33,853 nucleotides of DNA, taken from the NCBI GenBank assembly GCA_903904545.1, contig CAIVDB010000049.1:1-33853 (forward strand). Reading direction: 5' to 3'. A program made the position numbers and the translations under genes. Origin of the DNA: an uncultured bacterium. GTDB lineage: Bacteria; Patescibacteria; JAEDAM01; Absconditabacterales; Absconditicoccaceae. Shown here piece by piece: positions 1-31,977 of the stretch; position 1 is the first letter of the stretch; every line of letters starts with the position of its first letter. Under the pieces are notes generated by a model, which saw only the letters and a program-made list of their open reading frames with translations, did not search any database and was not told where the DNA came from.

Positions 1-604
1 TATATTGTTTATTATTTATATAGTAAGATGCATTTTCTAGTCCATCACACTTTATACATTCGGAGCATCAAAGCATATTTGAAGAAAACCAAACATTGTT
101 TGAATTAGTAATAAATCTAGAATAAAATATATTCGAAGAGGTAATAACTCAATTAGAAGAAAATACATTCTGTGATCAATCTACAACATAAACACTATTT
201 AATACATCGTTACTCTCTCTACACATAAAACTATATAAAACATTTTGAGATCATCTTGTTACAACAAAACTAAGATATGCATCTTTAACATTTACAGCCG
301 TATCAGCATATTGTGAATTTTCATTTTCTCATCGATGATTGACAGCGGATAGAGTTGTCTGATTAAAGAGATTCTTTAGTCAATTAAATAAATTCATATT
401 ATCCATTTCTCATACTTCAGAAAAAGAATACTCTTTCAATGTACATACCTTAACCCTATTGGTAGGTGGGTATGAAGAAATTATTCAATTATTTTTATAT
501 AATACCACCGGCATCCAACTACAAATTTCTTTCACAAAATCTCTCCAAGGGGTATCTTTTCTCTTTTCTTGCATTTTTAATTCCCACTGTTTGATATCTT
601 GCAT
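1..604 (-). CDS. Solenoid-repeat protein, type B, C-terminal part cut by window edge
   Basis: Partial gene; the ATG is at 602-604 and the frame is open to base 1. About 200 residues are visible. It begins MQDIKQWELKMQEKRKDTPW, the basic leader of the type B members, followed by an RDFVKEICSW segment. From roughly residue 90 it runs into 12-residue repeats of the form [ND][IV]xxS xx[IV]xx[SN]x, for example NVLYSFMCRESN and NIFYSRFITNSN, closed by a Cys-rich cap (ECIKCDGLENA) and YYINNKQY. At least nine in-frame TGA codons occur, all where a glycine fits. The function of this family is unknown. An octamer array sits immediately upstream of the start. It lies 49 bases downstream of the next type B gene on the same strand and is probably co-transcribed with it. 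The identity as a paralog is certain; the function is not. Confidence 0.85.
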
Positions 605-610
605 GGAAGA

Positions 611-650
611 AGCGGTGAAACGATAAAACGGTTAAACGACTAAACGATTG
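611..650 (-). repeat. Octamer tandem array in the 5' leader of the type B gene at 604
   Basis: Four degenerate 8-base units, on the coding strand CGTTTAGT, CGTTTAAC, CGTTTTAT and CGTTTCAC, end ten bases before the ATG. The same kind of array precedes several other starts in this window. No Shine-Dalgarno sequence is present between it and the start. Confidence 0.75.
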
Positions 651-653
651 CAA

Positions 654-2144
654 TTATTTGAACTTAAATCAAAGCTTTATCCTTTCCAACCAATGAATCT
701 CAGGCAGTGGTAATCCATGTTTCATAAGGAAATCATATTCCATTTTCACAATTCTATACGAATTCCCCTTCTCGTCTACAATAACTTTCTTGAGAATCTC
801 TGGGTTAATTTCTCGCGCTCATTTTTCGTTATATCATTGATACGTATCTAACTCCTTACTCTTGACCACTTCTGCTCCTGCAGGAATATCTACTTTGACT
901 TCTTCGTCTCTTCGAAGATATCATTCAGCAGCTACTTCCTCTTTGGTAAATGTATCGTCTACTAGATATGCTATAGTATCATTGAAATAAAATGGATTTA
1001 ATTGTCATGGGAAGAATGCTCATAATGATCAATCTTGGTCCATATGTGCGAAAATCTTATCTGCTAATGCAAATCGTTCTTCCTTAGTGTATTGTTTGTT
1101 TAAGATACAAAATGATTTATTTATGAGTCCAACACAGCCCAAACAGTAGGAACAGCTTTCCATCCCATAGCAATAATACACATTGGTACAACGGGGTATA
1201 ATGACACTATTATAGATGTTGTGCCCTCCTGTACATCACATAATGCCGTAATAACCATCTCCCGTTGGTCCACCTGTTGCAGTAAAGGTATCATAAAGAT
1301 TATCACACGATTCGCCTCCCGATACCAACATAACATTTCTACTATCATGAGTAGCATGAAGATAGTATCCATCTTGTATATTAGAGCATTCCGTCAAATA
1401 TGTTCACGATACATTGGTACTTATAGCGGCTACAATGTGTTTATCTAAAGTGGAAAACATTGAGAGGAATTCTTCTTTTTTACTTAGGAGTTTCTCTTTT
1501 AGAATTGTGTATTCTTCTTTTGTATACTCTTTGTTGGCTATATGGTATGATGCATTCTCTAGGTTATTACACAAAAGACACTCATGACATCATATCATAT
1601 TGGTACTGAATCGGATATCACCACAATTATCAATCTGTTTGGAATAAAATACATTGTATGATTTCATCACGTTGAAGCTTTGGTAGATATTCTCGCTCCT
1701 GACAACACTTATACAATTTAAGATATTGGTACTATTATCTTTGATTACCATACTATACAGAACATTTTCACTCCCAACAATCACATAACTTAGATAGCAA
1801 TTTTTTGCATTCATGGCTTGGTCTGAATATTCTGAATTTTCACATCCACTGAATAATAAGGTGTTTTCTAGTGGGATACGCCTAAAGAGATCCTGAAAAT
1901 TTTCGAAAAAAGATTTATCTTCTGTATAGTCTAATCAATAATTTAGCAATTCGTCCCTTTTGGAGATAAATTCCTTTCATGGGACAACGCTATCTATTCT
2001 ATCACTCTTAGGATATCTCGAAATGAGCGTATCTACCTTATAGAATGGCAGAGCTCTCCAGCTGCAGATTTCTTTGAGAAAATCACGAAAGCTCGTTGTC
2101 TTTCTCTTCTCTTGCATTTTAAGCTCTCGAACATGCAGGTCCAT
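654..2144 (-). CDS. Solenoid-repeat protein, type B (496 aa)
   Basis: Reads MDLHVRELKMQEKRKTTSFR at the N-terminus and ends KLGFKFK-TAA. I chose the ATG at 2144 because it aligns with the starts of the other type B members; an ATG nine codons upstream (2171) overlaps a TATAAT box and is less likely. The first solenoid (about residues 105-195) has 12-residue units such as NIYQSFNVMKSY and NVFYSKQIDNCG, then a cap with CHECLLC and NKEYTKEEY. A second Cys-rich block ends CLGCVGLINKSFCILNKQY, followed by the EERFALADKIFAHM helix. A FFPGQLNPFYFND motif and a C-terminal MEYDFLMKHGLPLPEIH module follow. About twelve TGA codons lie in frame, including the Gly of KLGFKFK, which is GGA in the copy ending at 3101. 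Function unknown. Confidence 0.88.
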
Positions 2145-2169
2145 AAGAACGTGATCATGAGATAAAATC

Positions 2170-2198
2170 ATTATACAAGTAGTATATCATTTTATACC
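2170..2198 (-). promoter_or_regulatory. Putative promoter and dyad upstream of the type B gene at 2144
   Basis: A perfect TATAAT box on the minus strand (bases 2170-2175) would place the transcription start about 20 bases before the ATG at 2144. It overlaps an inverted repeat, TATAC-N5-GTATA (2172-2186), that could be an operator for the divergently encoded TrmB-like regulator. No good -35 hexamer is visible at 17 bases. This is inference from sequence only. Confidence 0.35.
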
Positions 2199-2330: not shown

Positions 2331-3098
2331 ATGCAACAAGAGCATGTCAAACAAATTCTTATGAAATTAGGGCTCACAGAATCTGAGATAGATGTGGTAT
2401 TTATGGGACTAAAATTATGACCCGCAACGATTATCCAGCTTGCTAAGCATACTGGTCTCAAGAGAATCACTACGCATGCAATCGTGCAGAGGCTTTTGGA
2501 GAAAGGAGTATTTTCTGAGACAAAAAATAAGACCAAAAGACTCGTCTATCCTAATGATCTCAAATGTCTCTCTCGTCTCTTAGAGAAGAAAAAACAGGAG
2601 ATAGAAGATATCGAAAACGAATTGGACAAGGCGTCTCAGTTTCTCACTAATATCCAGGCATGGAGCCAATGATTTCCCAATGTGAGGTTTTATAAGGGGA
2701 AAGAAGGAGTGCAATTGATGTTTGATGAGATCTTGTGAGATAAAAAAGATATGTATGTCCTCTCTGATCATAGCTACTTCTACGATGTTATAGATAATCA
2801 ATTTCTGGAGAAGTCTTTGGAGTTGAGGAAAAAATATAAGCTGAATACTAAAATGTTGTTTCCTGCCGGATTTGAGTATTTCTGTTTTTCTCAGGGAGTC
2901 TACGAACAAAAATTATCTATCAAGGCCTTGCCAGAAGATTTTCCTCTCATCTGAGCAGTAAATATCTGGGGAGAGAAAGTAGGTTTCCATACAGAAAAAG
3001 GTGGCTTCATTACTACCACCATTATCGAAGATGAAAAGGTCAGTCAGATTATGAAATTCTTATTTGAACATGTCTGGAAAGTTGCTAATGAATATTAA
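2331..3098 (+). CDS. TrmB-family transcriptional regulator (255 aa)
   Basis: The N-terminal 70 residues form a winged helix-turn-helix: KLGLTESEIDVVFMGLKLG, then IIQLAKHTGLKRITTHAIVQ, typical of TrmB-like regulators. A coiled segment of Lys/Glu (about residues 84-110) and a C-terminal ligand or dimer domain follow, with the RFYKGKEGVQLMFDE motif common in this family. Four in-frame TGA codons (glycine) interrupt it; the one after LKL is at the turn that is glycine in the second TrmB of this window (LELG). It is encoded divergently from the type B gene at 2144 with a 186-base gap, and its stop lies 2 bases from the convergent stop of the gene ending at 3101. It may control the neighbouring solenoid genes and itself. 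The family is confident, the targets are guessed. Confidence 0.9.
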
Positions 3099-3100
3099 GA

Positions 3101-4582
3101 TTATTTAAATTTAAATCCTAGCTTTATTCTCTCTAACCGATGAATCTCTGGTAATGGCAATCCATGTTTTTGCAGAAATTCTAATTCCATCGGGACGATT
3201 CTATAATAATTTCACTGCTCGTCTTTAATTACTTTCTTGAGAATTTCTGGGTTAATTATCCATTCTCATTGGGCGTTGAGTCATTGATAGTGATTTAATT
3301 TATTCGTTTCGATTACTTCTGCAGTTGTTGGGATATCGACTTTAATTTCCCCTTCTCTTCGTAAATATCATTGTTTAGTCACTTCTTCTTCCGTAAAGCT
3401 CTCGTCTATCAAACACGCAGCCGTGTCGTTGAAGTAAAAGGGATTCATCCATCACGGGAAGAACGCTCACAAAGTTCAGTCTTTTTCCATCTGTGCAAAA
3501 ATTTTATCTGCTAATTCGAATCGCTCTTCTTTGGTATATTGTTTATTCAAAATGCAAAATGATTTATTTTTTAAACCGATACATCCCAGACAATATGAAC
3601 AATCGTTTAGAAAATATGAATAATAGATATTTGATCAGCCCACAATCTCTATACTACAAAAATAATTATTTCATAGCCCCCCGCCTACAAGTCCGTAATA
3701 GTCTTTCCCATATGCGGCACTTCCTACATCGTAGAAATTTTCACATCATTGAACATCTCCCACGAAGAGTGTATTTCTTCCGTGATACACTTGATAAGAA
3801 AACATTCCTTGCTCTAGATCAGTAGATTTCATAAGATAGGATCATGAAGTGTTTTCACACGCTAAGCGTGTATCATGGAGAGGAAGCTGAAGAAAATAGT
3901 TTTGAAATTTCTCTTTTGATTGAAGTATATCTCTTTTGATGGTCATATATTCTTCTTTCGTATATTGTTTATTCTGGATGCAGTAAGATTTATGGTCAAG
4001 ATTGTCACAGAGAATACATTCATGACAGCCCAATACATGTGAGGAAAATCGTATGTCTGAACTATCAAAAACAAATCTAGAATAAAAGACATTAAAAGAT
4101 TTGAAGATACCCACTGCGTTGAAGATATTCTCGGAGTTTTCCCCAACCATGACAGAATTAAAAACATAGGAACAATTATCTTTCACATTTACACTATACA
4201 CGACCTTCTCAGAATAACACACTTCGAAACTCAGATAAGAATTGTTTGAATAAAATACTTTGTGTGCAAAATCTGCATTCGTTACATTGCCTCGTTTTGC
4301 TACGTGAGGAAATGAAATATGAGAGAACATCTTTTTGTATGCTGATCGAAAATCATCTTTGTAGTCTTGTCCGTATTGAAGATACCCCTCTCTCAAGGAT
4401 TCAAATTCAAGATAGGGAATTCCTTTCCCTGAGAAATCTGGACAAAGAACGGTAGGATTCCCATCATTACTTTTGTATAAACTAAGATTATAATAACTTC
4501 CTATCTCCATCAAAAAATCTCTCCAAGAAGTCTTTTTCCTCCTAGCTTTGATCTTTTCTTGTCGCATCTTTATATCATTCAT
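3101..4582 (-). CDS. Solenoid-repeat protein, type B (493 aa)
   Basis: Starts MNDIKMRQEKIKARRKKTSW at ATG 4582; the GTG directly before it is an alternative. The leader is strongly basic. 12-residue solenoid units occupy about residues 130-200 (for example NIFNAVGIFKSF), capped by CHECILCDNLDHKSYCIQNK and QYTKEEYMTIKRD. A second Cys-rich set ends CSYCLGCIGLKNKSFCILNK. Next come FFPGWMNPFYFND, a YLRREGEIKVDIP strand, and the C-terminal KHGLPLPEIHRLERIKLG module with stop TAA. About eleven TGA glycines are in frame. It is the same length as the neighbour upstream, and their 3' 130 bases are about 90% identical. It starts 6 bases after that neighbour's stop, so the two are in one operon. Function unknown. 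Confidence 0.88.
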
Positions 4583-4588: not shown

Positions 4589-6070
4589 TTATTTAAATTT
4601 AAATCCGAGCTTTATCCTCTCCAATCGATGAATCTCTGGCAATGGCAGTCCATGTTTTTGCAGAAATTCTAATTCCATCGAGACGATTCTATAGTAATTT
4701 CACTTCTCGTCTTTGATTACTTTCTTGAGAATTTCTGGATTAATTTTTCGTTCTCAGGGACTAGTGTATCATTGATACTGATTTAGATCTTCAATTTCAA
4801 TCACTTCCGCATTAGCTGCTACGTCCACTTTGATTTCATCATCACGTCGGAGATAGCCTGCCTTTGTCACTTCTTCTTTAGTGAAACTCTCATCTATCAG
4901 ATATGCAGCAGTATCGTTGAAGTAGAAAGGATTCATCCATCACGGAAAGAACGCTCATAATGTTCAGTCCTTTTCCATCTGTGCAAAAATCTTATCTGCC
5001 AAGACAAACCATTCTTCCTTAGAATACTGTTTATTGAGAATACAGAAGGATTTATTCTTCAAACCGATACATCATAAACAATACGAGCAAGAAGAGTCTA
5101 TATTCATACAGTAATAAGCATTGGAAGCGCCTATAAAGACACAACAATACGCATCATGTGCTTTGGTACCTGCCTGAACCGTCGCATAAAAATCATGGGA
5201 ATCGAGTCCAATATCTATTCCATCATAGAAATTATATGACCCCGTCTTTCCTCATTCGTAGAGGATAACATTTCTAGAATCTCTCGCATAGGAAACATAA
5301 TAGCCATTTTCTATATGCTGAGCATGGGCAATCCCCTTCCCTGTTGTCTCTTGTACGTCTAAACTATCCATCTTGGCATGAAGTTCCTCATACCACTGAG
5401 AAAACTTTACTTTGTCAGACAAAAGAGCCTGTTTTTGTTCTTGGTACTCTTGCTGAGACAGCTGTTTATTGTGAATACAGTAGGATTGGTTTTGGAGGTG
5501 ATCACAGAAGAGACAATGCGTACATCCTATCAGGTTGGAAGAAAATCGGATATCGTGAGCATGATCTATTTGAACGCTATAGAAAATATTTGATGATTCT
5601 AAGATATTCTTTGAGAAGAAAATATTATCACAATTGGAAGTCACACAAAAGGAATTGAGTACATTCGTACAGTTATGGATGATGAAGGTAGAATACAAGG
5701 CATTCTCTACATCTCGTCCTGCTCAGAAACTCAGATAACAGTTTTTTGCCCCATAACTTCCATCAGAGAATTCACAATTTTCATTTCTCCCATAATGCAG
5801 GATATTTGCCTTAGGTGAGCGCGTATACAAATCATAAAAATCCTTGAAAAAGTCTCCTGTATACTCTCCTATGCAGTCATTATGCATGCTGATGGATAGA
5901 TCATTTACTATATTTTTGTTCCTCTCTTCTTCTGGATATCTTGAAATAAATCCCTGATATCTAAAGAGATTGAAATTATATCGGCTCGTGATCTCTTGGA
6001 CAAAATCACGAAAGGGGGTTTTCTTCCTTCTCGCCTTGATTTTTTCTTCTCGCTGTTTAATGTCTTGCAT
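4589..6070 (-). CDS. Solenoid-repeat protein, type B (493 aa), tandem paralog
   Basis: Starts MQDIKQREEKIKARRKKTPF and RDFVQEITSRYNFNLFRYQG at ATG 6070. The first solenoid spans about residues 110-190, with NCDNIFFSKNILESSNIFYS as a typical stretch and CTHCLFCDHLQNQSYCIHNK as cap. The second block ends CSYCLGCIGLKNKSFCILNK. It then has FFPGWMNPFYFND and KHGLPLPEIHRLERIKLG, ending FKFK-TAA. Ten or so TGA codons are in frame; each sits where a paralog has Gly or an equivalent turn. A short octamer-like leader (CATTTTAT) and CTTC precede the ATG, and no Shine-Dalgarno is seen. It lies between a GC-rich inverted-repeat element and its twin gene downstream. Function unknown. Confidence 0.88.
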
Positions 6071-6226: not shown

Positions 6227-7936
6227 TTATCCATAAATTTCTTTGTTATAGCAGGCTTCGCAGTAAACAATTTCTGGTCTCTCAGGAGCATAGCTTGTCT
6301 TGATGCCTACTCAACACTTCGCACATTTTCTTTCTCGTAATTTTCTAGGATTCCTCAATGACATTCTTTTCTCGTGCCTCACGTCGGGGTGTATTTGAGG
6401 CAATGGCAAATTGTGTTTACGATAGAAATCCAATTCTGGCTTAATTATTTTGAAGGGTTTTTTACTTATAACACAGATGATAGCCTGTTCAAGAATCGCT
6501 TCTGTTGTATCCTCAATAGAGGGAAGTTCGTTTGCTTGGAGGGTCTTAGCTGCTTGAGGGAATGGGGCCTCATAGTCTGATCGTTTAAATCATTTTTCTT
6601 TAGCACGAGATTTATCTAAGGGATAGTAATCATTAGCGGCTGTCTCATTATATCCAAAAAGAGAGAGTCCTGCTGGGAAAAATTCCCCTCGCTCCCCTGT
6701 TTCCTTCATGTGATCGATAATCTGGGGAACTAAGATCTCATATTCTTCTTTCGTATATTGTTTGTTTAGAATGCAGTATTCTTTTTTCTTAAGTCCTGCA
6801 CAGCCAAAAGTATGTGAACATCCATGCATAAAGATAGAGTACATGGTGGAGTTACAGGTTCCTCGATTACAAATGCCAAAAAGCACTTTGTATGAACTAC
6901 TGCCTACAGCGATCGCATTGTAGATAAACGTGGAGTTATCACCTCGTGATTCATAATCATAACAGTCGCTTGCCTTGAGCAATCTTGCTGAATATTTACA
7001 GTCATGAATCTCAAATGAATCATAACAGCCAAAACAATTTTTTGCATTCTCTAGATTGTCGCCGACACAGTCTTCTGTATGTAAGGTACAGGCATGTCTA
7101 TGAGGAAGCTGAAGTTTCCAGTCAGTAAATTCTTTCTGGATCTCTTCATGTCCTCCGTGTTGGAGTTTATCTAGATAAGCTTCTTTGATTTTCTGGTAGT
7201 CCTCCGGTGTATACTCTTTGTTCTTGTAATGGTATGCGGCGTTGGTCAATCACATACAGAGCAAGCAATCATGACATCCTCTACAATCAAAGAGGAAGTA
7301 TCCATCACGGCAATCATTGCAATGCATGGAATACAAGAGGCTATGACATTTTGTACAGTTACAACATGCATAACACTGTTCACTATATAAGGTATAGATA
7401 CAATCTACACAGTCTTTGGCAAAACTTACTTTCAGCCCATAGTAGCAATCCTCAGATTCCATACTATCGAAAACAAGATAACAATTTTTCATGGTCCCTG
7501 CATAATTATTGTAGAGAGAATTAGATTGCCGTCCTTTGCTATTGAAAATTGCCTTTTTGGGCACTTCATTGAGCAAGTCAGCGTACTGAGAGAAGAATGG
7601 TTTGGTGAAGTCAAAGTCTCTACCATATGCCAATCCATCTCGTTCATCTCCATCATAATAAGGACTATTGTATACTGTATAGGGTTTATCTGGAGAGTAC
7701 ATGGAGATAATAGATTCTCATGAGATATCGCAGGTTCTTTTGTACAGATTTTTTTCGTTACGAAACGCAAGTCTCTTTTGTGCCCTACAATCTGGGCATG
7801 TCTTTGGCGAAGCAACCAGATATTTCTTTCATGCAAAAATTGGAGAAATCTTATCATAGAATTCCAGATCCTTGTCGGTAACGGTGAATGACGTTCCACA
7901 AGAACATACTTTAGTCTCTACAATAGTCTCTGGCAT
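6227..7936 (-). CDS. Zinc-ribbon solenoid protein, type A (569 aa)
   Basis: Starts MPETIVETKVCSCGTSFTVT. The N-terminal ribbon has C11 and C13 (CxC rather than CxxC) plus C47-PD-C50, then the RAQKRLAFRNEKNLYKRTCD stretch and SMYSPDKPYTVY. The first solenoid (about residues 145-230) is very Cys-rich; its cap CRGCHDCLLCM leads into TNAAYHYKNKEYTPEDYQ. The second repeat block ends FGCAGLKKKEYCILNKQY. FFPAGLSLFGYNET, ELDFYRKHNLPLPQIHPDVR and a C-terminal ribbon (C538, C541, C559, C562) finish it, ending NKEIYG-TAA. TGA occurs at the Gly of CDISG, which is GGC in the copy starting at 23489. The metal-binding pattern suggests structural zinc sites; partner and role are unknown. Confidence 0.88.
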
Positions 7937-8050: not shown

Positions 8051-10306
8051 CTATATAATTGGTTCACTAAAATCTTCGATGGTCTTGATAACATCTGCTT
8101 GTTTCTCTTCCAATACTTTCTTTGCCTCAGCAAGTGATCTTGCATAGGTCAATCTAGAAAATTCATATAACTGAGCAACGTAGTCTTTACGGATAGGTGC
8201 ATCGGGAATATAACAACTTTTGAGTCCAAAGGGATCTTTTACTTGTCCTTGTACCAGAAGCTTACAATAAAATTCTCTAATATTGAGATTAGCCAAATCG
8301 TAACCATCTAAGAAAGGACTAAACTGTTGTTTCATATACTCTGCATCTTCAGAAGAGATCCTGAAACTGACTAAGGTTCCTACATTTCCAAATAAGGATG
8401 CTGAGATATTTTGGGGGATTTGCTTGATATACTGGTGAGCTACGGACAAGGAAAGTCCGTATTTTCTAGCTTCGGAAAGAATCTCATTGAAGGTATCCGT
8501 AGCGAAATTTTGGAACTCATCTACATAGAGGAAGAAAGGAGTTCTCTGACTTTTCTCTACGTTTTGTCTTCCCATGGCTGCTTGGAAAAGTTTCGTTACA
8601 AACATTGCTCCGAGGAAGCCCATAATGTCTTCTTGAAGTTTTCCCTTGGGTAATTTGATCAATAAGATTTTACTTTCATCCATCACCTTTCTAAAGTCCA
8701 ATTTATTTTCTGGAGAAGCAAAGATATTTTTGAGGACTTCGATAGAAAGCAATTGTCCTATCTTATTTAGGATTGGCATGATGGCTTCGGTATTGAATTG
8801 TTGTGACCATCCCGCAAATTCATTGGTCCAGAAGTTTCTGACTACATCATCCTGGATTGCATCGATCATTGTATATCTAAAGTCCTTGTCTGTCAAGGCT
8901 CTAATGATATCAAAGAGAGTTGCTCCCGGTTTATCTAACAATGCGAGGAAGATCATTCTGAGTACGTGTTCAAGTTTTGGATTCCAGTTTGCTCAGAAAA
9001 ACTTATGGAAAATATCAATAAATCATTTTGCTAAGACTTGTTTAGACTCATCCGCCTGGACATCCAGAGGATTGAAACAGAATGGATATTGGTCATCTGT
9101 GGGATCGAAAATGATGACATCTTTTTTGCGAGATTCCGGTATGTGCATCATAATTTCCTCGATAGCATCTCCATGCGGATCGATTACTCCTACTCCTTTT
9201 CCTTGGATAATATCATTGATCATCAGGGATAACAAAAATTTTGATTTTCCTGTACCGGTCTTTCCTACCACATAGACATGTTTGAGTCTATCCTCATCGT
9301 AGATCCCTATCGGCACCTTGATAGATCTATAATCAGAGATTCCTATGATATTGATATCTTGAGGGAAATTTTTGGGAATAATCTCTCACTTTTCTGTCGT
9401 GGTATATTCAAAGGTAGGGATACCGACGGGGAGTGCTAATTTTCTTGCTCTTACGGTCAAAAGCGAGGTCTCATTTTTAGGATTTTTGGGGAAATGGAAG
9501 AAAGAAGAGATCTCTTGGGAAGTCATATAAAACTTTCCAAAGGGGCCATTGAAATCTCTCACCTGATTGAGCGAAGTAATCGTCTTATGAATCTTGATAT
9601 GGAACTGATTGAGTGGATAATTTTTGAAAACAAGAAAATTATTGAATAACGATTTGATCCTGCCTTCAGCCATTGCTTTATTCTGTGATTGGACGATGAA
9701 ATACAGTTTTGTTTCGAAGAGATTACTTTGTAATTTATCTCTGAAATAGGTATGCCCTACCTGTTTCCAGTTCTTTTGGATTTTATGGTTGAACATATAT
9801 TTATAAAAATTGAAAGACAACTTCCATTTGAATATCCAATGCAAAAATTTGGATCTAATAAAGAAAAAGAAACTTTCATTGACTACGGGTTTCATCTCTA
9901 CAAAGAAGCCTATTTTATCATTGATAACATCGAAATTTTCGAAAGTCCTAAACATATTGAAGATAAAATCTGAATTATCTTCATTATCCATCTTGTATGG
10001 GAAAAACCGATCGTTTGCTAATTTTATTTCTCCAATCACTGATCTCGACTTATCATATGCCCAGATATTCTTTTCATCATCGATGATCTGGAAATTATTG
10101 AAATGAGTATAAAATTGTGACTCAAAGGTGGGATAGGTCTTGGGCCCGGAAGTGAAAGAATAGAAAATCTCTCCCTTACTATAGTGGAGTCCTAAAGTAA
10201 ACCTTTGTTGTGATAAGGTCTTGGAGATATCTTCCAAAAATTCCATAAAGACCTTTCTTCCCTTATCGAATGAGTGATATATCTTGATCAAATAGCTTTT
10301 ATTCAT
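8051..10306 (-). CDS. VirD4/TraD-like conjugative-coupling ATPase (751 aa)
   Basis: P-loop ATPase of the HerA/VirD4 (type IV secretion coupling protein) superfamily as found in CPR genomes. Walker A is GKTGTGKS at about residues 348-355, preceded by KHVYVVG and followed by GVGVIDPHGDAIEEI. Walker B is FLYVDEFQNF at about 592-601, followed by SLSVAHQYIKQIP, the sensor-like segment. Residues 1-320 form a mixed alpha/beta N-terminal domain without an obvious transmembrane helix. Three TGA glycines are in frame, at about residues 307, 428 and 437; stop TAG. The N-terminus follows ACTTC-ATG with no Shine-Dalgarno. No other type IV secretion gene is in the window, so a role in DNA or protein translocation is inferred from family only. 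It is divergent from the SIMPL gene. Confidence 0.88.
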
Positions 10307-12567: not shown

Positions 12568-12604
12568 TTTGAATTGATTTTTGATTGTTTACTAATTTAA
12601 TTTT

Positions 12605-13048: not shown

Positions 13049-13198
13049 GTGTTTTATTTTATTAATTTGTTTGTATTGACTTATTTTGTTTTTGTTGTAT
13101 TTAGTGTATAACTAAAAAATGGCATAAGTCAATTCTTAATTAGTAAAACCTGTTGTAGATGTTCTTCAACACCCTTAGAGTATTTTCGTTCAGAATAG

Positions 13199-13228: not shown

Positions 13229-13247
13229 CCTAATAAGATAGATGAAA

Positions 13248-21815: not shown

Positions 21816-23489
21816 TTATCCATATATCTCGTGATTGTAACACTCCTCACAATATACAATTTCAGGTCTTTCTGGCGCATAGGTCGTTTTGGTTGCTCTT
21901 CAACATTTAGCGCAGTTCCTATCCCAAAGCTTCCTAGGGTTTCTCATCATCATTCTCTCTTTGTGTCTTTGGTCAGGATGCTTTGTCGGGAGAGGTAATT
22001 GATGTTTACGATAAAAATCTAATTCTGATTTAATGATCCTAAATGGTTTGTTCGTCACTTCGCATAGGATAGCTTGTTGGAGAATATCATCACTCACCTC
22101 TTCGATGGCAGGCAATTCTTTCGCTTTCAATGTTTTTTCTACAACAGGGAATGGTGCTTCATAGTCAGATCGTTTGAATCCTTGTGCAATGGCCTCGTCT
22201 TTGGTGAGAGGGAAATGTTCGTTTACCAGCGTTTCGTTGTAGCCAAAGGGAGATATTCGTGAAGGAAAGAACTCCCCTCGTTCGCCATCTGCCTGCATCT
22301 TTTTTATAATCTGTGGAACTAACTTTTCATATTCTTCTTTGCTATATTGTTTATTTAAAATGCAGTAGGAGGTATTGCAGACGCCACTACAGAGGAAGAC
22401 ATGAGCACTATGGAAACATCCGATACAATAGTAGGCATCTTGTGAGGGATAACAGTAATAGAGGAAATAATTATTGTAGCCATCTATCCCTGCAGCCACA
22501 CATTCGTACACTCTATCTACGGGTCCATAACTCGAGAAACAATCCATAGCATTGGTAGTTTTATTATAGAGATCTGATGAATAACGGACATTTTCACAGT
22601 CACGGATATTGAAACTCTTCCGTACATTCTTGGAATGATAGATACTATCGCCTACAGCATTTTCACTTCAGACGATATCGATATCCTTACGTGGAAATGC
22701 AAGACAGAACGAAGAAAACTTTTCAGCAGTCATTTCTTTTAGCTTCTGAGGAAAAAGCTCTTGATATTCCTCTTTGGTATATTGTTTATTCTCTATACAG
22801 TAGGAGGCGTTATGTAAATTGACACAACACAGACAATTACTACAGTTGTCACAGGCGTAGAGATACCAAGAAAGGGAACAATTTTTACAAGACTGACAAT
22901 ACCAAAGCATGGTACTATCATCGATATCTACCGATTGAAAAATCTGGCGGCTTCTATTGACCCGAGTGGAATCGTAGACGTGTTCCCCATCGACGATCCT
23001 ATATCCATAATAACAATTTTCACAATTAGCACTTCCATGGACAAGGTAACAGTCTTTCATATTGGCTGCGTGCTGGCAATACTCGCTATTGTGACACATT
23101 TCATTGATCAGTGAGGACTGAGGGACTTTTCTGTAGAGCTCCTGGTATTGGAGAAAAAAAGACTGACTAAAATCAGGTTCGCGTCCGTACTCTAGGGGGT
23201 CTCGTTTATCAGAGTGTCGGATATGGTGGTCGTAGACTGTCATAGGACTTTCTGGACTATACATCGAGATGATTTCTTTGCCACTAAAGTCACAGGTTCT
23301 ACGATAGAGTTTCTTATCATTACGAAAAACAAGTTTCCTTTGCAAACGACAATCAGGACAAAAGGTCGGTGTCGGAAGGGGAAATTTTTCTCCATCGAAG
23401 GTCGGAGAAAGAAGCTCTAACATATCGATATCTCCTTGCATAATAGGGAATGACTTTCCACAATGCTTGCAGGTTTTGGTTTCTTGCAT
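21816..23489 (-). CDS. Zinc-ribbon solenoid protein, type A (557 aa)
   Basis: N-terminal ribbon: C7-KH-C10 and C44-PD-C47, followed by RLQRKLVFRNDKKLYRRTCD and SMYSPESPMTVY. Solenoid 1 (about residues 144-230) has exact 12-residue units such as NCYYGYRIVDGE and QIFQSVDIDDST, capped by CSNCLCCVNLHNASYCIENK. Solenoid 2 (about 275-375) repeats the plan and ends SYCILNKQYSKEEYEKLVPQ. Then FFPSRISPFGYNE, a SELDFYRKHQLPLPTKHPDQ module, and a C-terminal ribbon C526, C529 (CAKCG; Gly by TGA), C547, C550, ending NHEIYG-TAA. Only two TGA are in frame (the residue-274 Gly and that after C529). Function unknown. Confidence 0.9.
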
Positions 23490-23580: not shown

Positions 23581-25266
23581 TTATCCATAGATTTCCTTGT
23601 TATAACATTGCTCACAGTATACTATTTCTTTCCTCTCAGGAGCATAAGAACTTTTTATAGGAATTCAACATTTCATGCATGGCCTCTGCCATAACTTTCT
23701 TGGATTTCTCTGGTGCATTCTTTCCAAATGTCTCTGATCGGGATGTTTGGTAGGAAGTGGGATAGTATGAGATTTGTAATATTCTAATTCTGATTTGATA
23801 ATTCTAAAGGGCCTGCCAGTTACTTCACATATGATTGCTGTCTGTAAAATATTTTCTTCTGCTTGCTGGATATTGGGGAGATCTTTCGCCTCTATTTTTT
23901 GGAGTGAGGCAGGGACATTGATCGCATAGTCTTCATCCTTCCGAGTAAATCATTGGCCTAAAGCTTCTTCTTTCGTTAAAGGGAAAGACTCCTGTCCGAG
24001 ACTCTCGTTGTAGGCAAAAGGAGAAATACGTGAAGGGAAAAACTCCCCCCATTCTCATTCAGCCTCCATTTTTTCTATGATCTGTGGAACTAACTTTTCG
24101 TATTCTTCTTTCGTATATTGTTTATTCAAAATGCAATACTGTTTATTCCTAATCCCGGTACAAGCAAAGCAATCGGAACATGCGAAACAGAAATAACTAT
24201 AAAAAATATTAGTGCACGCAGATCGACACGCATAACAAAATCTTAGATTGGAAGAGTCTTCACATCCAATCGTTTCTAAGCAGTGATTGCAGTTATTCCC
24301 AGAGAAGTTATCATCTTGTATATTTTGTACAATCATAGGATCATAAACATACCCACAGTCCTCGCTGTCTTTTGCTCCGTATACTTCATGACAATTTTTA
24401 CATCTGCTCAAATTATCTCCTGTTACGTTTTCACAGAACATGATGTTGGCATATTTATGGATACTTTTGTTTACTACCAAATCAGTAAATTGTGATTGGA
24501 GTGATGCGATTCATTGTGCTTTTAGCTCTGCGACTTTGATCTCATAGTCTTCTTTGGTATAGGGAACATTCAAGATATAAAATTGTTTATTTGCAAGATT
24601 ACTCGAGAGGAAACAACTATTACATCCTACGCAATCATAACATCGCTGACAATCGTAACAGTGATCTGCTTGTCTACAAAAATCACATTTTGTACATCCC
24701 ATACAGTCTAGGAGATTACTACTCAATTCGCATTCTGCGCTGTAAGAAATATCGAAGGCGTGTTTACAAGTGTAAGATCTGGAAAGATATGCTGAGTCCT
24801 CTCCCCGCCCATAGTCGAAACACAGGTAACAATTTTTACTGTAGCCACCATGATTATTATACTCACAATTTTCGTTTCCCACGCCGAGCAAACTTATCTG
24901 AGGAGTAGTATGGAGAAGAGCATCAAATTGAGCAAAAAGAGTCTGGGTAGGGTCATAGTCACGTCCGTAATCCGTGGCATCTCGCGCATCAGAGAATCGC
25001 TCCTTTGTCTCGTAGACGGTATATGTTTTCTCTGGAGCAAAATTGGAAATAATCGTTTTCCCTGTTTTGCCACAGGGTCTATGATACAGTTTTCTCTCAT
25101 TACGAAAGGTCAGTCTCCTCTGCTGACGACAATCAGGACAGAGCGTAGGATTTGGAATATCATATTTCACTCCATTGAATGTAGGCGAATGTTTGGAGTA
25201 AAATTCTTTGTCCTGGTCCGTAATCGTGAATGATGCTGAACAATGCTTGCAAGTTTTGGATTCCAT
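23581..25266 (-). CDS. Zinc-ribbon solenoid protein, type A (561 aa)
   Basis: ATG at 25266 (MESKTCKHCSASFTITDQDK); the sequence upstream is the octamer leader, so a longer start is not used. N-terminal ribbon C6, C9, C43, C46, then CRQQRRLTFRNERKLYHRPC. Solenoid 1 (about residues 150-250) is extremely Cys-rich (CMGCTKCDFCRQADHCYDCQ). Solenoid 2 includes SEDCGYVYDPMIVQNIQDDN and caps with CFACTGIRNKQYCILNKQY. FFPSRISPFAYNE, SELEYYKSHTIPLPTKHPDQ and a C-terminal ribbon (C530, C533, C551, C554) end it at NKEIYG-TAA. At the Gly of TGKTIIS this copy uses GGG while two paralogs use TGA. Function unknown. Confidence 0.9.
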
Positions 25267-25305: not shown

Positions 25306-26793
25306 TTACTTAAATTTAAATCAGAGTTTTATTCTGTCTAATCGATGAATCTCTGGTAATGGTAGCCTATGCTTTTGCAGGAAGTCTAATTCCATTGGGA
25401 CAATTCTATAATAATTTCACTTCTCATCTTTGATTACCTTTTTCAATATTTCTGGATTGATTTTTCGTTCTCCTTGAGCACCTGCCCCGTCTTTAGCGGG
25501 GTTAAATCATTGATAATTAATTAATTCTTGTGTTGTGATCACTTCTGCGTTTGCTGGTACGTCCATCTTAATCTCTTCATCACGTCGTAGATATCATTCC
25601 TTCGTTACCTCTTCTTTTGCGAAAGAATCATCTATGAGATACGCAGCTGTATCGTTGAAGTAAAAGGGGTTCATGCTCGCGGGGAAAAACGCTCACAAAA
25701 TTCAGTCTCTTTCCATCTGCGCGAATATCTTATCTGCCAATTCGAATCGCTCTTCTTTGCTATATTGCTTATTTAAAATGCAAAAGGATTTATTTTTCAA
25801 TCATATACATCAGAGACAATATGAGCATTCTTCCAAGAAGAAAGAATGATAGTTGTGTTGGCCTCATCCCACATAATCACAACAGTAAATATGTTCTCCT
25901 GGTCCGATATAGAGTGAGGCATAACAATCTTCTCCCGATGGAGATCCACCGAGGAAGAGATCGTAAAGATTTCTATTTCCTCACTTTGATCCTGTATTGA
26001 TTACATTTCTAGCATTAGATACACGATACACATTGATACCGTTTGCTATATTCTCAGACTCTACTATAAATGATGAGCTAGGAGGAAGCGCGTTATAATA
26101 AGAGAGAAACTTATGTTTTTCTTGTACTATCTCTGACTTCAATTTTAGATATTCCTCTTTTTCATATTTTTTATTGCGGATACAATACGACTGGTTTAGA
26201 AGATTGTCACAGAATATACATTCATGGCATCATTGGAGGTCCACTGAGAAATAAATAGCACTACTATCAATGATATTTTTTGAATAAAATATATTATGTG
26301 ATCTTAGGATACCACTACATTGATAGATATTGGAACAATTGTCTCGTGCCATGTAGGTATTGAAAACATTTGTACATCACTCTTTGATATGGAAACTATA
26401 TCAGACGTTCTCTACATCAAGCACGATGCAAAAACTTAGATAACAATTTTTACAATATCGTCCATTCTCGCAATACTCTGAATTTTCCGTGTTGAGATTT
26501 CATAAATAAGGGAGCGTCACTGTCTGGTATAAATCTTGATATTGATGAAAAAACGGCTGAGAAAAATCATAATTTCTTTGAGAATTAATATTACTTTCTA
26601 ATGTTTCGTAATATTGTTTGACCGAACAAAGATTTTTGGGTCTTCTTAGACTCTCAGGGTATCTAGAGATACTGCCATCAATTTTATGGAGATTAGTAGG
26701 ACACCGGCCAGCTATCTCTTTGATAAAAGTACGGAAGTTTGTTTTCTTCCTTATCTCTTGCATTTTGAGTTCTCGAGAGTTGAGATCAGACAT
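25306..26793 (-). CDS. Solenoid-repeat protein, type B (495 aa)
   Basis: Starts MSDLNSRELKMQEIRKKTNF with the type B basic leader and ISRYPESLRRPKN. Solenoid 1 (about residues 110-200) has NIYQCSGILRSHNIFYSKNI and a CHECIFCDNLLNQSYCIRNK cap. Solenoid 2 ends CSYCLGCIGLKNKSFCILNK, then EERFELADKIFAQMERD, FFPASMNPFYFND, FDFLQKHRLPLPEIHRLDRI and KLGFKFK-TAA, the Gly being TGA. About fifteen TGA codons are in frame. The segment before INPEILKKVIKDEKG has about five extra residues encoded by a small GC hairpin. It is 29 bases from the radical SAM gene upstream, same strand. Confidence 0.88.
25485..25501. repeat. Small GC hairpin inside a coding region
   Basis: CCCCG-TCTTTAG-CGGGG inside the type B gene at 25306-26793. 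It adds residues AKDGAGAQG that paralogs lack, in frame. Confidence 0.6.
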
Positions 26794-28268: not shown

Positions 28269-29978
28269 CTACCCATAGATCTCCTTATTAAAGCATTGCT
28301 CGCAGTAGATAAGCTCTTTCCTTTCTGGTGCATAGGATGTTTTGATCGCTACTCCACATTTCATACATTGACGATCTCGTAATCTTTTGGGATTGCCCTG
28401 AGCCATTCTTTCTTTATGCCTTTGGTCGGGATGTTTATGAGGAAGTGGGATATTGTGTTTACGATAAAATTCAAGTTCTTTCTTGACCATGCGGAAGGGT
28501 TTTCCACTTATTTCGCAGGTAATGGTTTGATTGAGGAAATCATCGGTCACTGATGCAATTTCATCAGGAAGATTCTTCGCCTCAATGCTTGCATCCACAT
28601 GAGGGAAAGGGGCTTCATAGTCACATCGTTTATATCATTTCTTGTTTACCATTTCTCTACTCTCTGGGAAATAGTCTTGCGCTATCGTTTCATTGTATCC
28701 GAAGGGCGAGATGCTCGGAGAAAAGAACTCTCCCCACTCCCCCGTAGTCTGCATATGAGCAATAATCTGAGGAACTATTTTTTCATACTCTTCTTGGGTA
28801 TATTGTTTATTGAAAATGCAATACTGTTTATTTCTCAAGCCGATACAGCCGAAAATATGCTGGCACCCATGGCAATTGATACAATAATAGGCATCGGTGG
28901 ATCCATACACGACGATGGTAAATGCAACTTTGATCTCATCCACTCCCGTATCCACCGTTTCATAGAGCAAAGATGCCCTCGCTCCTACTCCATAACTGTC
29001 ATAACTATCTTTGAGGTCAAATCCTCCGTGCGTACAAAACTTACAATCTTTGGCATCATTACTGAGATCAAAGCAATAGTGAGAAGAGCTTACGCCTTCC
29101 AGTCCATCACCTGTCACGTCTTCACAGGAGATAATGTCTGCAAATTTATGGATAGCTGAGGATCGAAGCTGACGAATCTTTTGTTGATATGCTTGTAAAA
29201 CAGTATGACTTTGGAAATTCAGCTGAGTGAGTTTTTCCTGGTATTCTTCTTTGGTATATTGGATATTTTCTATGCAATAGGATGTATTTATCAGATTGAT
29301 ACATCCGACACAATGATGACAACTGCCACAATTGAAAAGGAAATACGAGTCACTACAATCATTACACTTCTGACTCCAGAGTAATTGATAGGAATTTTTA
29401 CAGTCTACGCATTCATAACAGGACTGCATATTCATCCCTCGAAGAAGATCTATACAATTTTTGGAGACTCCCATACCCCTTCCATACATACAGTCTTCAT
29501 TTTCATAACAGCCGAAAATCATATAGCAATTTTTCTCTCCTACACAATGATTAGCATATTCACTATTGACGGTATTTATATTATAAAGTGCTGCATTAGG
29601 CGTTTCCTTCCATAACTTCTCAAATTGCGAAGCAAAAGATTGGGTGAAATCAAAGACTCTCCCATAACTCATAGGATCCCAATCATCTGATCGCCACATA
29701 TGTCTATCACAGACTTTATATCCTCCCTCGGGTTGGTAAATACTTATGACAGATTTTCACGTCAGATCGCAGGTCCTACGGTAGAGTTTTCTCTCATTAC
29801 GGAAGCTCAATCTTCTTTGTGCTCTGCAGTCAGGACACAATTTTGGTGCTGGGAGCACATATTTCTGACCAGCGAGTACGGGAGACATCTTATCATAAAA
29901 TTCTAGGTCCTTATCAGTAATTTCAAAGGCCGCTCCACATTGGGTACATGTTTTCTTTTCTACAATGGTTTCTTGCAT
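28269..29978 (-). CDS. Zinc-ribbon solenoid protein, type A (569 aa)
   Basis: Starts MQETIVEKKTCTQCGAAFEI; the N-terminal ribbon is C11, C14, C48, C51, then CRAQRRLSFRNERKLYRRTC and DLTGKSVISIYQPE, the Gly being TGA. Solenoid 1 (about residues 150-235) caps with CHHCVGCINLINTSYCIENI and YTKEEYQEK. Solenoid 2 caps with CQHIFGCIGLRNKQYCIFNK, then FFSPSISPFGYNET, KKELEFYRKHNIPLPHKHPD and C538, C541, C559, C562, ending NKEIYG-TAG. It has the same length as the type A copy at 6227-7936 and a similar N-terminus, so the two are close sisters. An octamer leader and a TATACT box lie upstream; the 11-bp array is just beyond. Function unknown. Confidence 0.9.
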
Positions 29979-30020
29979 GGTATGGACGTATAAACGCTAA
30001 AACGATGAAATAGTATAATA
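29979..30020 (-). repeat. Octamer array 5' of the type A gene at 29978
   Basis: On the coding strand TATTTCAT, CGTTTTAG, CGTTTATA and CGTCCATACC end at the ATG. A TATACT hexamer (30012-30017) may be the -10 box. Confidence 0.65.
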
Positions 30021-30034
30021 GGAATTAATTTGAC

Positions 30035-30111
30035 CAATAGCTTAACAGTAGACGAACGATAGCTGAACAATAGCTTTAATCATGCTACCGTTTGGCTATT
30101 GTTTGTCGCGA
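30035..30111. repeat. Mirrored 11-bp tandem array
   Basis: Seven 11-base units: CAATAGCTTAA, CAGTAGACGAA, CGATAGCTGAA and CAATAGCTTTA, then complement-like ones ending GTTTGGCTATT and GTTTGTCGCGA. Same theme, unit number and length (77 bases) as the array at 10369. It lies in the 175-base gap between two type A genes. Confidence 0.75.
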
Positions 30112-30153
30112 AGCATGAAGCGGGTTTTTCCATCTAAGCGCTACCAACTACTT

Positions 30154-31977
30154 TTATCAATAAATTTCTTTATTGTAGCACTCCTCGCAATAGACTTTCT
30201 CATCATACGAGGAAAGTATTTCTGTCCTACACTTTTCGCAATATTTAAGATAGAGTTTTCTTTTGGGTCTTTTGGTCATTCTCTGAGCATGACGAACGTC
30301 TGGATGTCTACGAGGCAGTGGTAATCCATGTTTGCGGTAAAACTCTAGTTCCATAGCAACGATTCTAAAGGGTCTTCCCGTTTCTGCACAAAGGATTGTT
30401 TTATCTACTATGTCATCTGAGATATCTTGGATAGCATCGGGAAGATCTTGCGCCTTGATTTGCTGAGAATTCCCTTGGACATTGATTTCATTTTCTTTTG
30501 TTCTTCGTTTGATTTTTATCTTTTCCTCTCCTCTCAAATCTAGGAGAGCATTGGAAATATGTTTTTCTGGTTGGAGAACCGTTACACTTCCTCTCCCCTC
30601 AGGATTGATGATTATCTCTTGGCCTTGATTACAAAGTTTCTGGATGGGATAGTAATCATATGCGACGGAATCGTTGTAGGGAAACGGAGAATCTTCTATA
30701 TCGAAGAAATCACCATATCTCCCCTGAGACTGTAATTCTTCAGCGATAGTTTGTGTTAACTGTTCTCGTTCTTCTTTCGGATATTCTTTATTAAGTACAC
30801 AGTATTTTTTATGATCTAGGCCCATACATCCAGTGATAAAGGAGCAATTTCTATCGAAATAGACATAATTTCCATTTTGCACATTCTCGAAGATATGGCT
30901 ACCTACGATACCATTGCTCAACTGGATAGTATTGGCTACATTGTAATTTTTTTCTCCTCGAGCAAAACTTTCTATGTCCATACAATCTGAAGCAAAAGCA
31001 TAAATATTGGCATAAGCCAGACTTTTTCATTCTTCTCAAACGGTACAGAGTAAGGCATCTTTGTTAGTAATGAGTTCGTTTCCTATTACATTTTCACACA
31101 TTGTACGATTGATTCATTTTTTGGGAAACTGAGCAAGAAATACTCTATATTCTTCAAGGATGCTAAGTAATCAGAGATATGAATTTAATTTCTCGTGGTA
31201 GCTAACAGAGATTACTTCTCGTTCTTCTTTGGGAAGCACTTTGTTTTTGTAAATATAACTCGCATTACGTAATCCAAATCCAAAGATAATATTTTGACAG
31301 GAAGTAAGATCATAGGAACAAAGGATATTAAATGAGCTCTCTATTTCTTGAGAGAAAAATATCTTTTGTGATTTATGGATATTTATACTTTCATAGATAT
31401 ATTGAGATTCCAATGCCCAATAGGTATCCACAGTCCAAAGTCCTTTGAGAGAATAGGTATTGTACATACTATTCTCATTAAAATGCCCTCCAGCATTGAG
31501 ATAGCAATTTTTGTCATCAGTTTCTTGATTACAATATTCTGCATTCTCCATATTGGCGGAAAGTTTACTTGGATATGGCATATTTTTTAGCAAGATTTTC
31601 CAATCAGCAAAAAATGATCACGTATATGGTATGCCATACTGAGTATTGTTGTTTTGATAAAAATCTTCCTGAGACATAAGATGGATTCACATATCTGGAG
31701 AAATAGTTGTTATTTCATGTTTGCCTTTCTCATTGGTAAATTTATAGAATTTTCTCTCATTTCTCCATGCGATCCTTTTGATTTGTCTTGCTTCAGGACA
31801 AAGAGTTGGCAAGGAAAGAAGGTACTTTTTTCCTCCAATGATTGGAGAGATTTTCTCTAGAAGGTCTTTTTCTTTTTGATAGATAGGAAATTCTTCTCCT
31901 GTTCGTCTGCAAGTTCTTCGCTCCACGATAGGATCTCAAGTCTCTTTACTTATAAACTCATATACTTTCTTTTCCAT
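30154..31977 (-). CDS. Divergent zinc-ribbon solenoid protein, type A variant (607 aa)
   Basis: ATG at 31977 gives MEKKVYEFISKETG; a GTG at 31926 is an alternative. The N-terminal ribbon is degenerate: CRRTG and CPEA replace the two Cys pairs. RQIKRIAWRNERKFYKFTNE keeps the following motif. Solenoid blocks are less Cys-rich (for example YIYESINIHKSQ) and carry NKEYPKEEREQL. A long insertion follows (about residues 435-500) with EKHISNALLDLRGEEKIKIK. The MELEFYRKHGLPLPRRHPDV module and C-terminal ribbon (CEKC, CEEC) remain. The last codons are NKEIY-TGA-TAA: read as Gly, TGA gives the same NKEIYG end as the sisters. Function unknown. The longest family member here. Confidence 0.87.

Follow-up and report, generated by a model that had tools for sequence, protein, structure and literature searches.

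Insect antifreeze proteins with 12 residues per turn form a right-handed coil with a disulfide core and a flat Thr-x-Thr face, and the left-handed hexapeptide beta-helix has a triangular turn of 18 residues. Among ATP-driven motors, HerA pairs with a partner protein, as in HerA-NurA and HerA-Sir2. The Patescibacteria are tiny, probably host-dependent bacteria about which little is known. According to PMC12102498, they possess a type IV secretion system (T4SS) and many VirD4 homologs, the role of which is held to be unclear; these homologs are common and lie mostly away from virB4.

The window, i.e., the whole patescibacterial stretch of 33,853 nucleotides analyzed here, contains ten solenoid paralogs, all on the minus strand and all open under genetic code 25 (TGA = Gly). 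Nine of them are whole and one, P0010, runs off the window edge. Their summed length is 15,177 bp (44.8% of the window), which bears out the ten-copy family filling about 45% of the window described in an earlier note on this DNA. The features are as follows:

2..604, minus strand: P0010, type B solenoid paralog, cut by the window edge
654..2171, minus strand: P0001, type B solenoid paralog, divergent from the TrmB gene
2331..3098, plus strand: TrmB-type HTH regulator, divergent from P0001, starting at the Met of the frame (PF01978, E 1.5e-7, 31.6 bits, cut-off 25.6)
3101..4582, minus strand: P0002, type B solenoid paralog
4589..6070, minus strand: P0003, type B solenoid paralog (AlphaFold2 model, pLDDT 84.7)
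6227..7936, minus strand: P0004, type A solenoid paralog, directly downstream of the ATPase gene
8051..10306, minus strand, read from 10303: P0251, VirD4/T4CP-like ATPase (Walker A GKTGTGKS)
20837..21592, minus strand: TrmB-type HTH regulator, downstream of P0005 (PF01978, E 1.1e-12)
21816..23489, minus strand: P0005, type A solenoid paralog (AlphaFold2 model, pLDDT 93.2)
23581..25266, minus strand: P0006, type A solenoid paralog with 40 Cys
25306..26793, minus strand: P0007, type B solenoid paralog
28269..29978, minus strand: P0008, type A solenoid paralog
30154..31977, minus strand: P0009, divergent type A solenoid paralog with an incomplete N-terminal Cys cluster

The five type A copies (P0004, P0005, P0006, P0008, and P0009) have Cys clusters at both ends, part of the N-terminal one being lost in P0009, and the five type B copies have none at their ends. 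Whole copies contain 15–40 Cys (34–40 in four type A and 15–20 in four type B copies). The four ligand Cys at the type A C-terminus were kept in 405 of 412 sequences, and C10 and C47 at the N-terminus were lost together. Treble-clef Pfam domains (PF13451, PF23477) scored above the gathering cut-off in P0005 (28.3 bits, cut-off 27) and P0006 (25 bits, cut-off 24), below it in P0004 and P0008, and far below it in P0009; these profiles did not match the type B copies. The conserved Cys4 pattern and the two above-threshold matches support the zinc ribbons proposed earlier for both type A ends, which are best read as zinc-type Cys4 clusters. As also proposed, both solenoid blocks are closed by a cap, here CxxCxxCx8C, with its Cys residues kept in 123, 123, 121, and 97 of 123 type B rows for one block and in 119, 121, 123, and 120 for the other. 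Within the solenoid core, many positions exchange Cys for Ser, Val, or Ile.

A simple autocorrelation of Ser and Cys gave peaks at 6, 12, 18, and 24, so that composition alone leaves the length of the turn unfixed. Direct-coupling analysis of 446 type A sequences (Meff 404) placed the maximum of the mean coupling at a separation of 12, with z 22.8 in block 1 and 15.3 in block 2; pairs at exactly 12 made up 36 and 20, respectively, of the top 80. At a separation of 18 there was no signal (z −1.2 and −0.1). The peak at 12 recurred in two smaller alignments: 119 type A rows (116 of 120 listed matches plus P0005, P0004, and P0008, with P0082, P0096, P0112, and P0119 left out), with z 10.2 and 7.4, and 123 type B rows (119 of 120 listed matches plus four window copies, with P0180 left out), with z 7.1 and 5.2. 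The AlphaFold2 models of P0005 and P0003 (the 23489 and 6070 proteins) were confident and displayed short repeated strands or bridges. Coevolution and models together support a narrow beta-solenoid with 12-residue turns, as the earlier note had suggested. Its "strict" unit holds for type A block 1; type A block 2 and, in the 119- and 123-row alignments, both type B blocks drift between 11 and 13 residues.

No PDB fold matched the P0003 and P0005 models at E ≤ 0.001 (Foldseek/VIA, covering mainly one solenoid block per model). A hexapeptide beta-helix enzyme, such as an acyltransferase, was rejected on turn length, as the coupling lies at 12 and not at 18. Accordingly, 94 model residues of the solenoid span about 142 helix residues in this class (GlmU, LpxA, LpxD, and gamma carbonic anhydrase), as expected for 12 versus 18 residues per turn. 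Position 4 of each turn is mostly aromatic (Tyr 45%, Phe 26%, Asp 12%). A ligand-binding Tyr ladder was rejected because the couplings F184-T420, Y197-M253, and D316-F408 suggest buried packing; the aromatic ladder is thus probably buried.

At E 0.001, P0005 matched 7,022 database proteins. The names of the named relatives read "hypothetical" or alike, except for P0111 ("Zn ribbon nucleic-acid-binding protein"), P0114 ("Caib/baif"), and P0126 ("nucleotidyltransferase"). The CaiB/BaiF label mentioned in the earlier note does therefore exist on one relative, but no CaiB/BaiF profile of Pfam or NCBIfam matched any of the ten copies at E ≤ 1, and the CoA-transferase reading was rejected. A functional DUF559 fusion in P0180 was also rejected, as the domain looks like an in-frame insertion in a linker that is expanded in P0154, P0209, and P0229 as well. 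The same applied to a phage origin, with one fragmentary match in viral contigs and none in a viral fold library at E ≤ 0.001. The solenoid proteins P0003, P0004, P0005, and P0252 had no match in a defence library, and no paper in the open PMC library was recognized as being on this family.

P0251 is a 750-residue protein with a VirD4/TrwB ATPase domain that includes the Walker A motif. It matched PF10412 (2.5e-10) and PF02534 (9.7e-9), DotL/IcmO among the PDB sequences (6sz9, 3.2e-6), and also TraG-D, HerA, Mad8, TraD, and CedD profiles. In a simple hydropathy scan, no 19-residue window of P0251 reached 1.6, i.e., no membrane anchor was detected, and transmembrane windows were likewise absent from 26 of 27 locus copies of the ATPase, some of them partial. 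None of 15 other window proteins scanned matched another T4SS or secretion profile. The same type of scan detected a membrane-length hydrophobic window in none of the ten window copies of the solenoid family and in 3 of 240 listed homologs, and an N-terminal hydrophobic stretch in none of the 240. With neither a signal nor a membrane segment found, a surface role is unlikely. Of the surface, storage, binding, or partner-recognition roles listed earlier, binding or partner recognition is supported by gene context.

The solenoid genes are linked to this ATPase gene and co-occur with it. Among the 207 family matches listed, 20 of 24 genomes had a family gene within 3 kb of the best ATPase match, and 15 had one within 1 kb; it was on the same strand in 18 of the 20, and in 4 of the 24 no listed family gene was on the ATPase contig. 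This count leaves out G083 and G205, whose ATPases were chosen by position and with which it would be 22 of 26; crowded genomes were scored for at most 7 family candidates, and G030, where 193 bp separate the ATPase from a family gene, is absent from part of the ATPase counts. Of 71 other ATPase matches, only the second copy of G013 was within 10 kb of a listed family gene. One 1.4-Mb genome had 54 family matches, where a match can be a piece of one gene. Among 192 genomes of the phylum, 11 were strong family positives. The ATPase matched at E 1e-125 in 14 genomes, and the 10 of these aligned from residue 18 or earlier were all among the 11 positives. In four family-negative genomes (G103, G158, G173, and G190), the alignment of ATPase matches of E 1e-125 to 1e-129 began only at residue 195 or beyond. 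The match in the eleventh positive, G178, was also partial; the residue-18 rule was set after these partial matches were known. Shared ancestry confounds the co-occurrence at this level. At 18 loci outside the code-25 group, read under code 11, 0–957 bp separated the ATPase frame from the nearest family frame, but the sample is biased because these loci were fetched for holding the family. Both genes were present in two Staskawiczbacteria loci (L070 and L071).

A simpler arrangement was found in Saccharibacteria-class genomes. The one-solenoid family P0252 comprises 77 proteins of about 230 residues with one block, usually with a single copy per genome, though G339 has two. Its solenoid and cap are homologous to those of the ten-copy family and its neighbor is the same kind of ATPase, at L096:3690-5933 in the case of P0252, but it lacks the zinc ends, the C-terminal domain, and the second block. 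Docking in this form therefore cannot rest on the zinc ends or the C-terminal domain. Of 117 genomes, 8 had the one-solenoid gene (E 1e-6), and exactly these 8 had the ATPase in a divergent form (E 1e-40; Fisher 1.5e-12). In 9 of 10 assessable cases (L114, a 37-residue edge fragment, being outside the 10) the gene was adjacent to its ATPase gene and directly downstream of it, and the tenth was a single 629-residue ORF under code 11 comprising ATPase plus solenoid. This fusion is a single case and was not found in the 2 further positive genomes of the same family. An apparent second fusion in L036 was rejected as a TGA read-through artefact of code 25, since code 11 gives two genes 31 bp apart.

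The TrmB–P0001 divergent layout recurs in other genomes: 20 of 90 TrmB matches were divergent from a listed family gene and within 400 bp of it, with ~0.12 expected under uniform placement. A census of neighbors in 68 locus groups detected no gene besides TrmB and the ATPase in more than 10 groups, bar one largely out-of-frame-looking cluster; its TrmB cluster count was not used because antisense frames were mixed in. No nuclease genes stood out beside the arrays in this census, with clusters judged by eye. The linkage to the ATPase and TrmB genes goes beyond what the earlier note had observed.

Pairs of copies were compared with within-genome pairs <2% different left out (overlapping loci) and with genome groups hand-set from record titles. 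At a divergence of 0.30–0.36, within-genome pairs (5) differed by 19% in their ends and 53% in their solenoids, and between-genome pairs (54) by 35% and 31%, respectively. At 0.36–0.42, these values were 26% and 59% within genomes (73 pairs) and 36% and 46% between genomes (192 pairs). The likeness of ends within genomes vanished above 0.48 and rested mainly on G003 (92 of 135 pairs). As judged from these pairs, close relatives in different genomes have their solenoids in common, and the closest paralogs within a genome, mainly one genome, have their ends in common. The N-termini of type B vary, differing by 68% within the window. In only 42 of 130 genes (G003 6/6, G008 4/4, G009 4/4, G005 3/13) did the C-terminus resemble that of a paralog in the same genome more than that of the solenoid counterpart; the genes in this test were chosen by solenoid closeness, which biases the solenoid figure, and many loci had few own paralogs. 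In a silent-site test for gene conversion, codon identity was not clearly raised in the ends; at identical residues, codons differed at 0.29 in the N-terminus, 0.29 in the C-terminus, 0.22 in the C-terminal zinc part, and 0.31 in the solenoids. Because the type-A-like copies compared were at least 27% different within a genome, the paralogs are old; the expansion noted earlier stands as a multitude of paralogs but not as a recent burst.

The nearest foreign relative of an ATPase-adjacent copy was itself adjacent in 4 of 26 cases, and the ten nearest relatives included on average 0.54 other adjacent copies versus 0.77 by chance. A single ATPase-docking ortholog was rejected, as the 26 adjacent copies required 25 label changes on a quick tree read without a shuffled control. 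The exceptions are the pairs L036/L073 and L070/L071, adjacent to the ATPase in both loci. The solenoid gene beside the ATPase is thus mostly not orthologous between genomes.

The solenoid genes mostly accompany one motor-type ATPase gene, which suggests a machine with exchangeable recognition parts. Our main reading, to which we assign a probability of roughly 0.4, is that the solenoids act as exchangeable subunits, for recognition or as adaptors, of a single dedicated VirD4/HerA-like ATPase. They would form a cytosolic set serving one soluble, probably hexameric ATPase, which would spend ATP on moving or remodeling what each solenoid captures. Paralog-specific recognition would reside in the two solenoid blocks of each copy, and the more uniform C-terminal domain, together with the zinc ends in type A, would face the common partner. 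The TrmB-type regulators beside the arrays may set which of the solenoids are produced. In its simplest form (Saccharibacteria-class genomes) the system would pair one ATPase with one solenoid, and in its expanded form (Gracilibacteria, Peregrinibacteria, Peribacteria, and kin) the single ATPase would have between 4 and about 50. The data show the turn length, the linkage, the co-occurrence, one fusion, and the mosaic divergence; from them we infer physical contact, the hexamer, an adaptor rather than a cargo role, and likewise the substrate and the cellular role of the set. The full picture is more tentative still: a patescibacterial ATP-driven machine with a soluble VirD4-like motor and up to about fifty exchangeable narrow, probably left-handed 12-residue solenoids, with the recognition surface conserved across species and the docking end matched within a genome.

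The least improbable alternative, though unlikely, is that the solenoids are cargo, i.e., effectors that the T4CP-like ATPase passes to the T4SS of Patescibacteria for delivery into host bacteria. A single ATPase whose many neighbors are diverse and exchangeable would fit this. So would a T4SS coupling protein being its closest relative by sequence among solved structures, and the T4SS and many VirD4 homologs that PMC12102498 reports for Patescibacteria. However, the ATPase lacks membrane segments in nearly all locus copies, a substrate fused to its own motor would be odd, no other secretion profile was matched in the window proteins scanned, and old paralogs with solenoids conserved between genomes are unlike fast-turning effectors. 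Slightly less probable than cargo is a lineage-specific paralog family whose neighborhood stems from a gene island inherited in common, with no functional coupling. Patescibacteria are related and inherit the arrays together, and ATPase and family were apart in four genomes among the matches listed; against this stand the patchy joint presence in Saccharibacteria-class genomes, the ATPase-solenoid fusion, and the joint presence in the two Staskawiczbacteria loci.

Less probable again is a DNA-handling module, with a HerA/FtsK-like motor and zinc-finger solenoids that bind nucleic acid in import, processing, or defence. The HerA, Mad8, TraD, and CedD matches of the ATPase, the treble-clef ends of type A, and the name of relative P0111 point this way, but these profiles have the ATPase core in common, type B and the one-solenoid form have no zinc ends, and no nuclease gene stood out by eye. 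Storage or delivery of zinc or another metal by Cys rings in the core is very improbable: it would suit the Cys-rich type A copies and the conserved Cys in each cap, but core Cys are often swapped for Ser, Val, or Ile, four type B copies are Cys-poor, and both the ATPase and the conserved solenoid identity would be left unexplained.

The solenoids, a large family almost without functional names, are a candidate partner for patescibacterial VirD4 homologs. With the pair of one ATPase and one solenoid, two proteins would be enough to test the question, and a bacterial solenoid with 12-residue turns is structurally interesting in itself. If the full picture is true, this would be an undescribed molecular machine, giving organisms that probably subsist on other cells a modular means of selecting substrates.

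P0251 resembles the T4SS coupling proteins VirD4, TrwB, and DotL/IcmO in its TrwB, T4SS-DNA_transf, and TraG-D profiles and in its DotL match, but has no transmembrane segments and is encoded beside solenoid genes. As in HerA-partner modules, a P-loop motor and its partner are encoded by two genes; unlike in HerA-NurA or HerA-Sir2, the partner is a predicted beta-solenoid, often in many versions per genome, and no enzymatic partner was seen. The Tenebrio-type insect antifreeze solenoid likewise has 12 residues per turn with every third residue, often Cys, Ser, or small, pointing inward, and no insect antifreeze chain was among the PDB sequence matches of the solenoid proteins. Unlike it, the present family, compared by period alone, is bacterial, is built of two blocks with zinc ends, and has an aromatic ladder that is probably buried.

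Ten minus-strand paralogs were read in the window under code 25. Together they span 15,177 bp (44.8%), which bears out the earlier estimate of about 45%. The paralogs and the neighboring features are as follows.

Features of the window
P0004, P0005, P0006, P0008 and P0009, minus strand: type A paralogs, about 557-607 aa, Cys clusters at both ends
P0001, P0002, P0003, P0007 and P0010 (2-604, cut by the window edge), minus strand: type B paralogs, whole copies 493-505 aa, without end Cys clusters
8051-10306, minus strand: VirD4/TrwB-type ATPase, directly upstream of P0004
10511-11389: SIMPL-domain (DUF541) gene near the ATPase
11713-15980: five genes in a row (secreted-type protein, lipoprotein-like protein, unknown, methyltransferase, B12 radical SAM)
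18316-20817 and 32148-33797: a pair of large paralogs, 28% identical, without assigned function

Types A and B have two repeat blocks and a related C-terminal domain in common, and each block ends in a Cys cap together with the motif N-x-x-Y. The sole Pfam matches were to the treble-clef ends, above the cut-off in two copies. TGA accounted for 30-89% of glycine codons in the type B copies and just 6-24% in the type A copies and the ATPase. None of the 71 glycine codons in 11713-15980 was TGA; its share was 40-100% in the flank at the 16-kb side and 6-8% at the 11-kb side (SIMPL gene and ATPase). This five-gene block is possibly a recent import into the code-25 genome from a standard-code donor.

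The proposed 12-residue solenoid is well supported. Direct-coupling analysis of 446 sequences, which is evidence separate from the structure models, peaked at a separation of 12 (z 22.8 and 15.3) and was flat at 18; the alignments of type A (119 rows) and type B (123 rows) gave the same result. The AlphaFold2 models were confident for both type A (P0005; pLDDT 93.2, pTM 0.88) and type B (P0003; pLDDT 84.7, pTM 0.88). Foldseek returned no PDB match to either model at E 0.001 or better. The nearest neighbors were left-handed hexapeptide helices, with 94 model residues superposed on some 142 helix residues at 2.5 A. Turns of 12 residues in this family and of 18 in hexapeptide helices would give this ratio. 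The handedness of these top neighbors hints at a left-handed coil here as well. An aromatic ladder occupies position 4 of every turn and includes one conserved Asp in each type A block. The ladder is likely buried, because it couples with the linker and the C-terminal segment.

At E 0.001, 7,022 database proteins matched P0005 and 704 matched P0003, with the best 120 of each listed. The organisms named among the matches listed were Gracilibacteria, SR1, Absconditabacterales and 'uncultured bacterium (gcode 4)'; a 'Caib/baif' label was attached to one relative, P0114. Named family loci include Gracilibacteria, SR1, Peregrinibacteria, Peribacteria, Abawacabacteria and Staskawiczbacteria. No published work on the family was recognised in the open PMC literature. 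In an even draw across the phylum, 14 of 192 genomes matched, 11 of them strongly and all 11 with at least 4 matches. The 16 genomes chosen via their loci held 4 to 54 matches, with 54 in the 1.4-Mb genome G001 and an array of copies in G003 (C4:57065 to 99621). The family is old rather than recently amplified, because the least divergent within-genome pair among those compared was already 27% different.

Conserved Gly columns of the type B alignment often mix Gly and Trp (49 and 47% at residue 369 of P0003). Many public translations thus seem to read TGA as Trp, and the family's database sequences to be partly mistranslated. Variable, often proline-rich in-frame insertions occur in P0180, P0154, P0112, P0209 and P0229; a DUF559 domain sits inside the P0180 insertion. 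The pattern resembles invasion of the gene by a mobile intergenic repeat. One G003 array copy (C4:96214-97896) contains 2 TAG and 4 TAA codons besides TGA codons, which indicates that some array members decay.

The window ATPase has a Walker A motif, no membrane segment was found in it by hydropathy, and its closest solved chain is the coupling protein DotL/IcmO. In 20 of 24 genomes, the best ATPase match and a listed family gene were no more than 3 kb apart (in 15, no more than 1 kb); across the genomes searched, 1 of 71 further related ATPase hits lay within 10 kb of such a gene. For 18 loci that do not belong to the code-25 group, read with code 11 and obtained through the family, the distance was 0-957 bp. 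Of the 192 drawn genomes, 14 had an ATPase match at E 1e-125. Ten matches start at residue 18 or earlier, all in strong family positives, and the remaining four start only at residue 195 or later, in family-negative genomes. The eleventh positive, G178, gave a partial match slightly short of the E 1e-125 cut. Of 90 TrmB-type hits, 20 were divergent from a family gene and no more than 400 bp away from it, against about 0.12 if placement were uniform. Two TrmB-type regulators lie in the window, and the one at 2331 has this layout with P0001. SIMPL-domain genes similar to that in the window were seen in loci L082 and L048 and, by eye, at L097:5313-5999. Homologs of the 18316/32148 pair stand beside solenoid arrays in six loci of four genomes (L006, L008, L037, L041, L085, L087).

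A minimal form, a one-block protein of 230 aa, was reached from two weak phylum hits; one of its database hits was named Candidatus Saccharibacteria. It is present in 8 of 117 genomes of the Saccharibacteria class, and a VirD4-like ATPase occurs in exactly those 8 (Fisher 1.5e-12), with just 25-27% identity to the window ATPase along a part of its sequence. Nine of the 10 assessable one-block genes have the ATPase as their immediate upstream neighbor on the same strand; in the tenth, ATPase and solenoid form a single 629-aa reading frame (L115:4196-6085). Joint action of solenoid and ATPase finds its strongest support in this patchy shared presence and in the fusion. Of the genomes checked, G205 and G256 have a TrmB gene ahead of the pair and the other 7 do not.

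The copy next to the ATPase mostly differs between genomes: the nearest foreign relative of an adjacent copy was also adjacent in 4 of 26 cases, and the ten nearest included a mean of 0.54 adjacent copies versus 0.77 by chance. Divergence is mosaic. At an overall divergence of 0.30-0.36, within-genome pairs (n=5) differed by 19% in the ends and 53% in the solenoids, and between-genome pairs (n=54) by 35% and 31%. At 0.36-0.42, the values were 26% and 59% within (n=73) and 36% and 46% between genomes (n=192). The contrast was gone above 0.48, and the within-genome pairs came mainly from G003 (92 of 135). P0003 and P0131, its nearest among the matches listed, differ by 4-6% in the solenoids and 20% in the C-terminal part; the four whole type B window copies differ by 55-58% in the solenoids, with 23% for the C-terminal and 68% for the N-terminal part. 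For 42 of 130 genes, the C-terminus resembled that of a paralog from its own genome more closely than that of the solenoid counterpart. These comparisons suggest, without a general rule, that close relatives in different species share solenoid identity and that C-terminal ends are generic, homogenised in some genomes.

We propose, with a probability of roughly 0.4, that the solenoids are exchangeable recognition subunits of one motor ATPase. Each paralog would owe its specificity to its solenoid faces and contact the common motor through its more uniform remainder, as an adaptor for a substrate, and TrmB proteins would select which solenoids are expressed. The same linkage could instead mean that the solenoids are cargo exported by the ATPase, which we consider unlikely, or that the ATPase is a DNA motor with solenoid subunits, which seems less likely still. 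Among the roles offered by the earlier note, partner-linked recognition fits best, rather than a surface or storage role. PMC12102498 counts 5,713 VirD4 homologs across Patescibacteria, places 148 near virB4 and allows other functions. Their location mostly away from virB4 fits a VirD4-like ATPase with a different job. A motor ATPase with a partner protein is a known kind of system; here, the partner is unusual.
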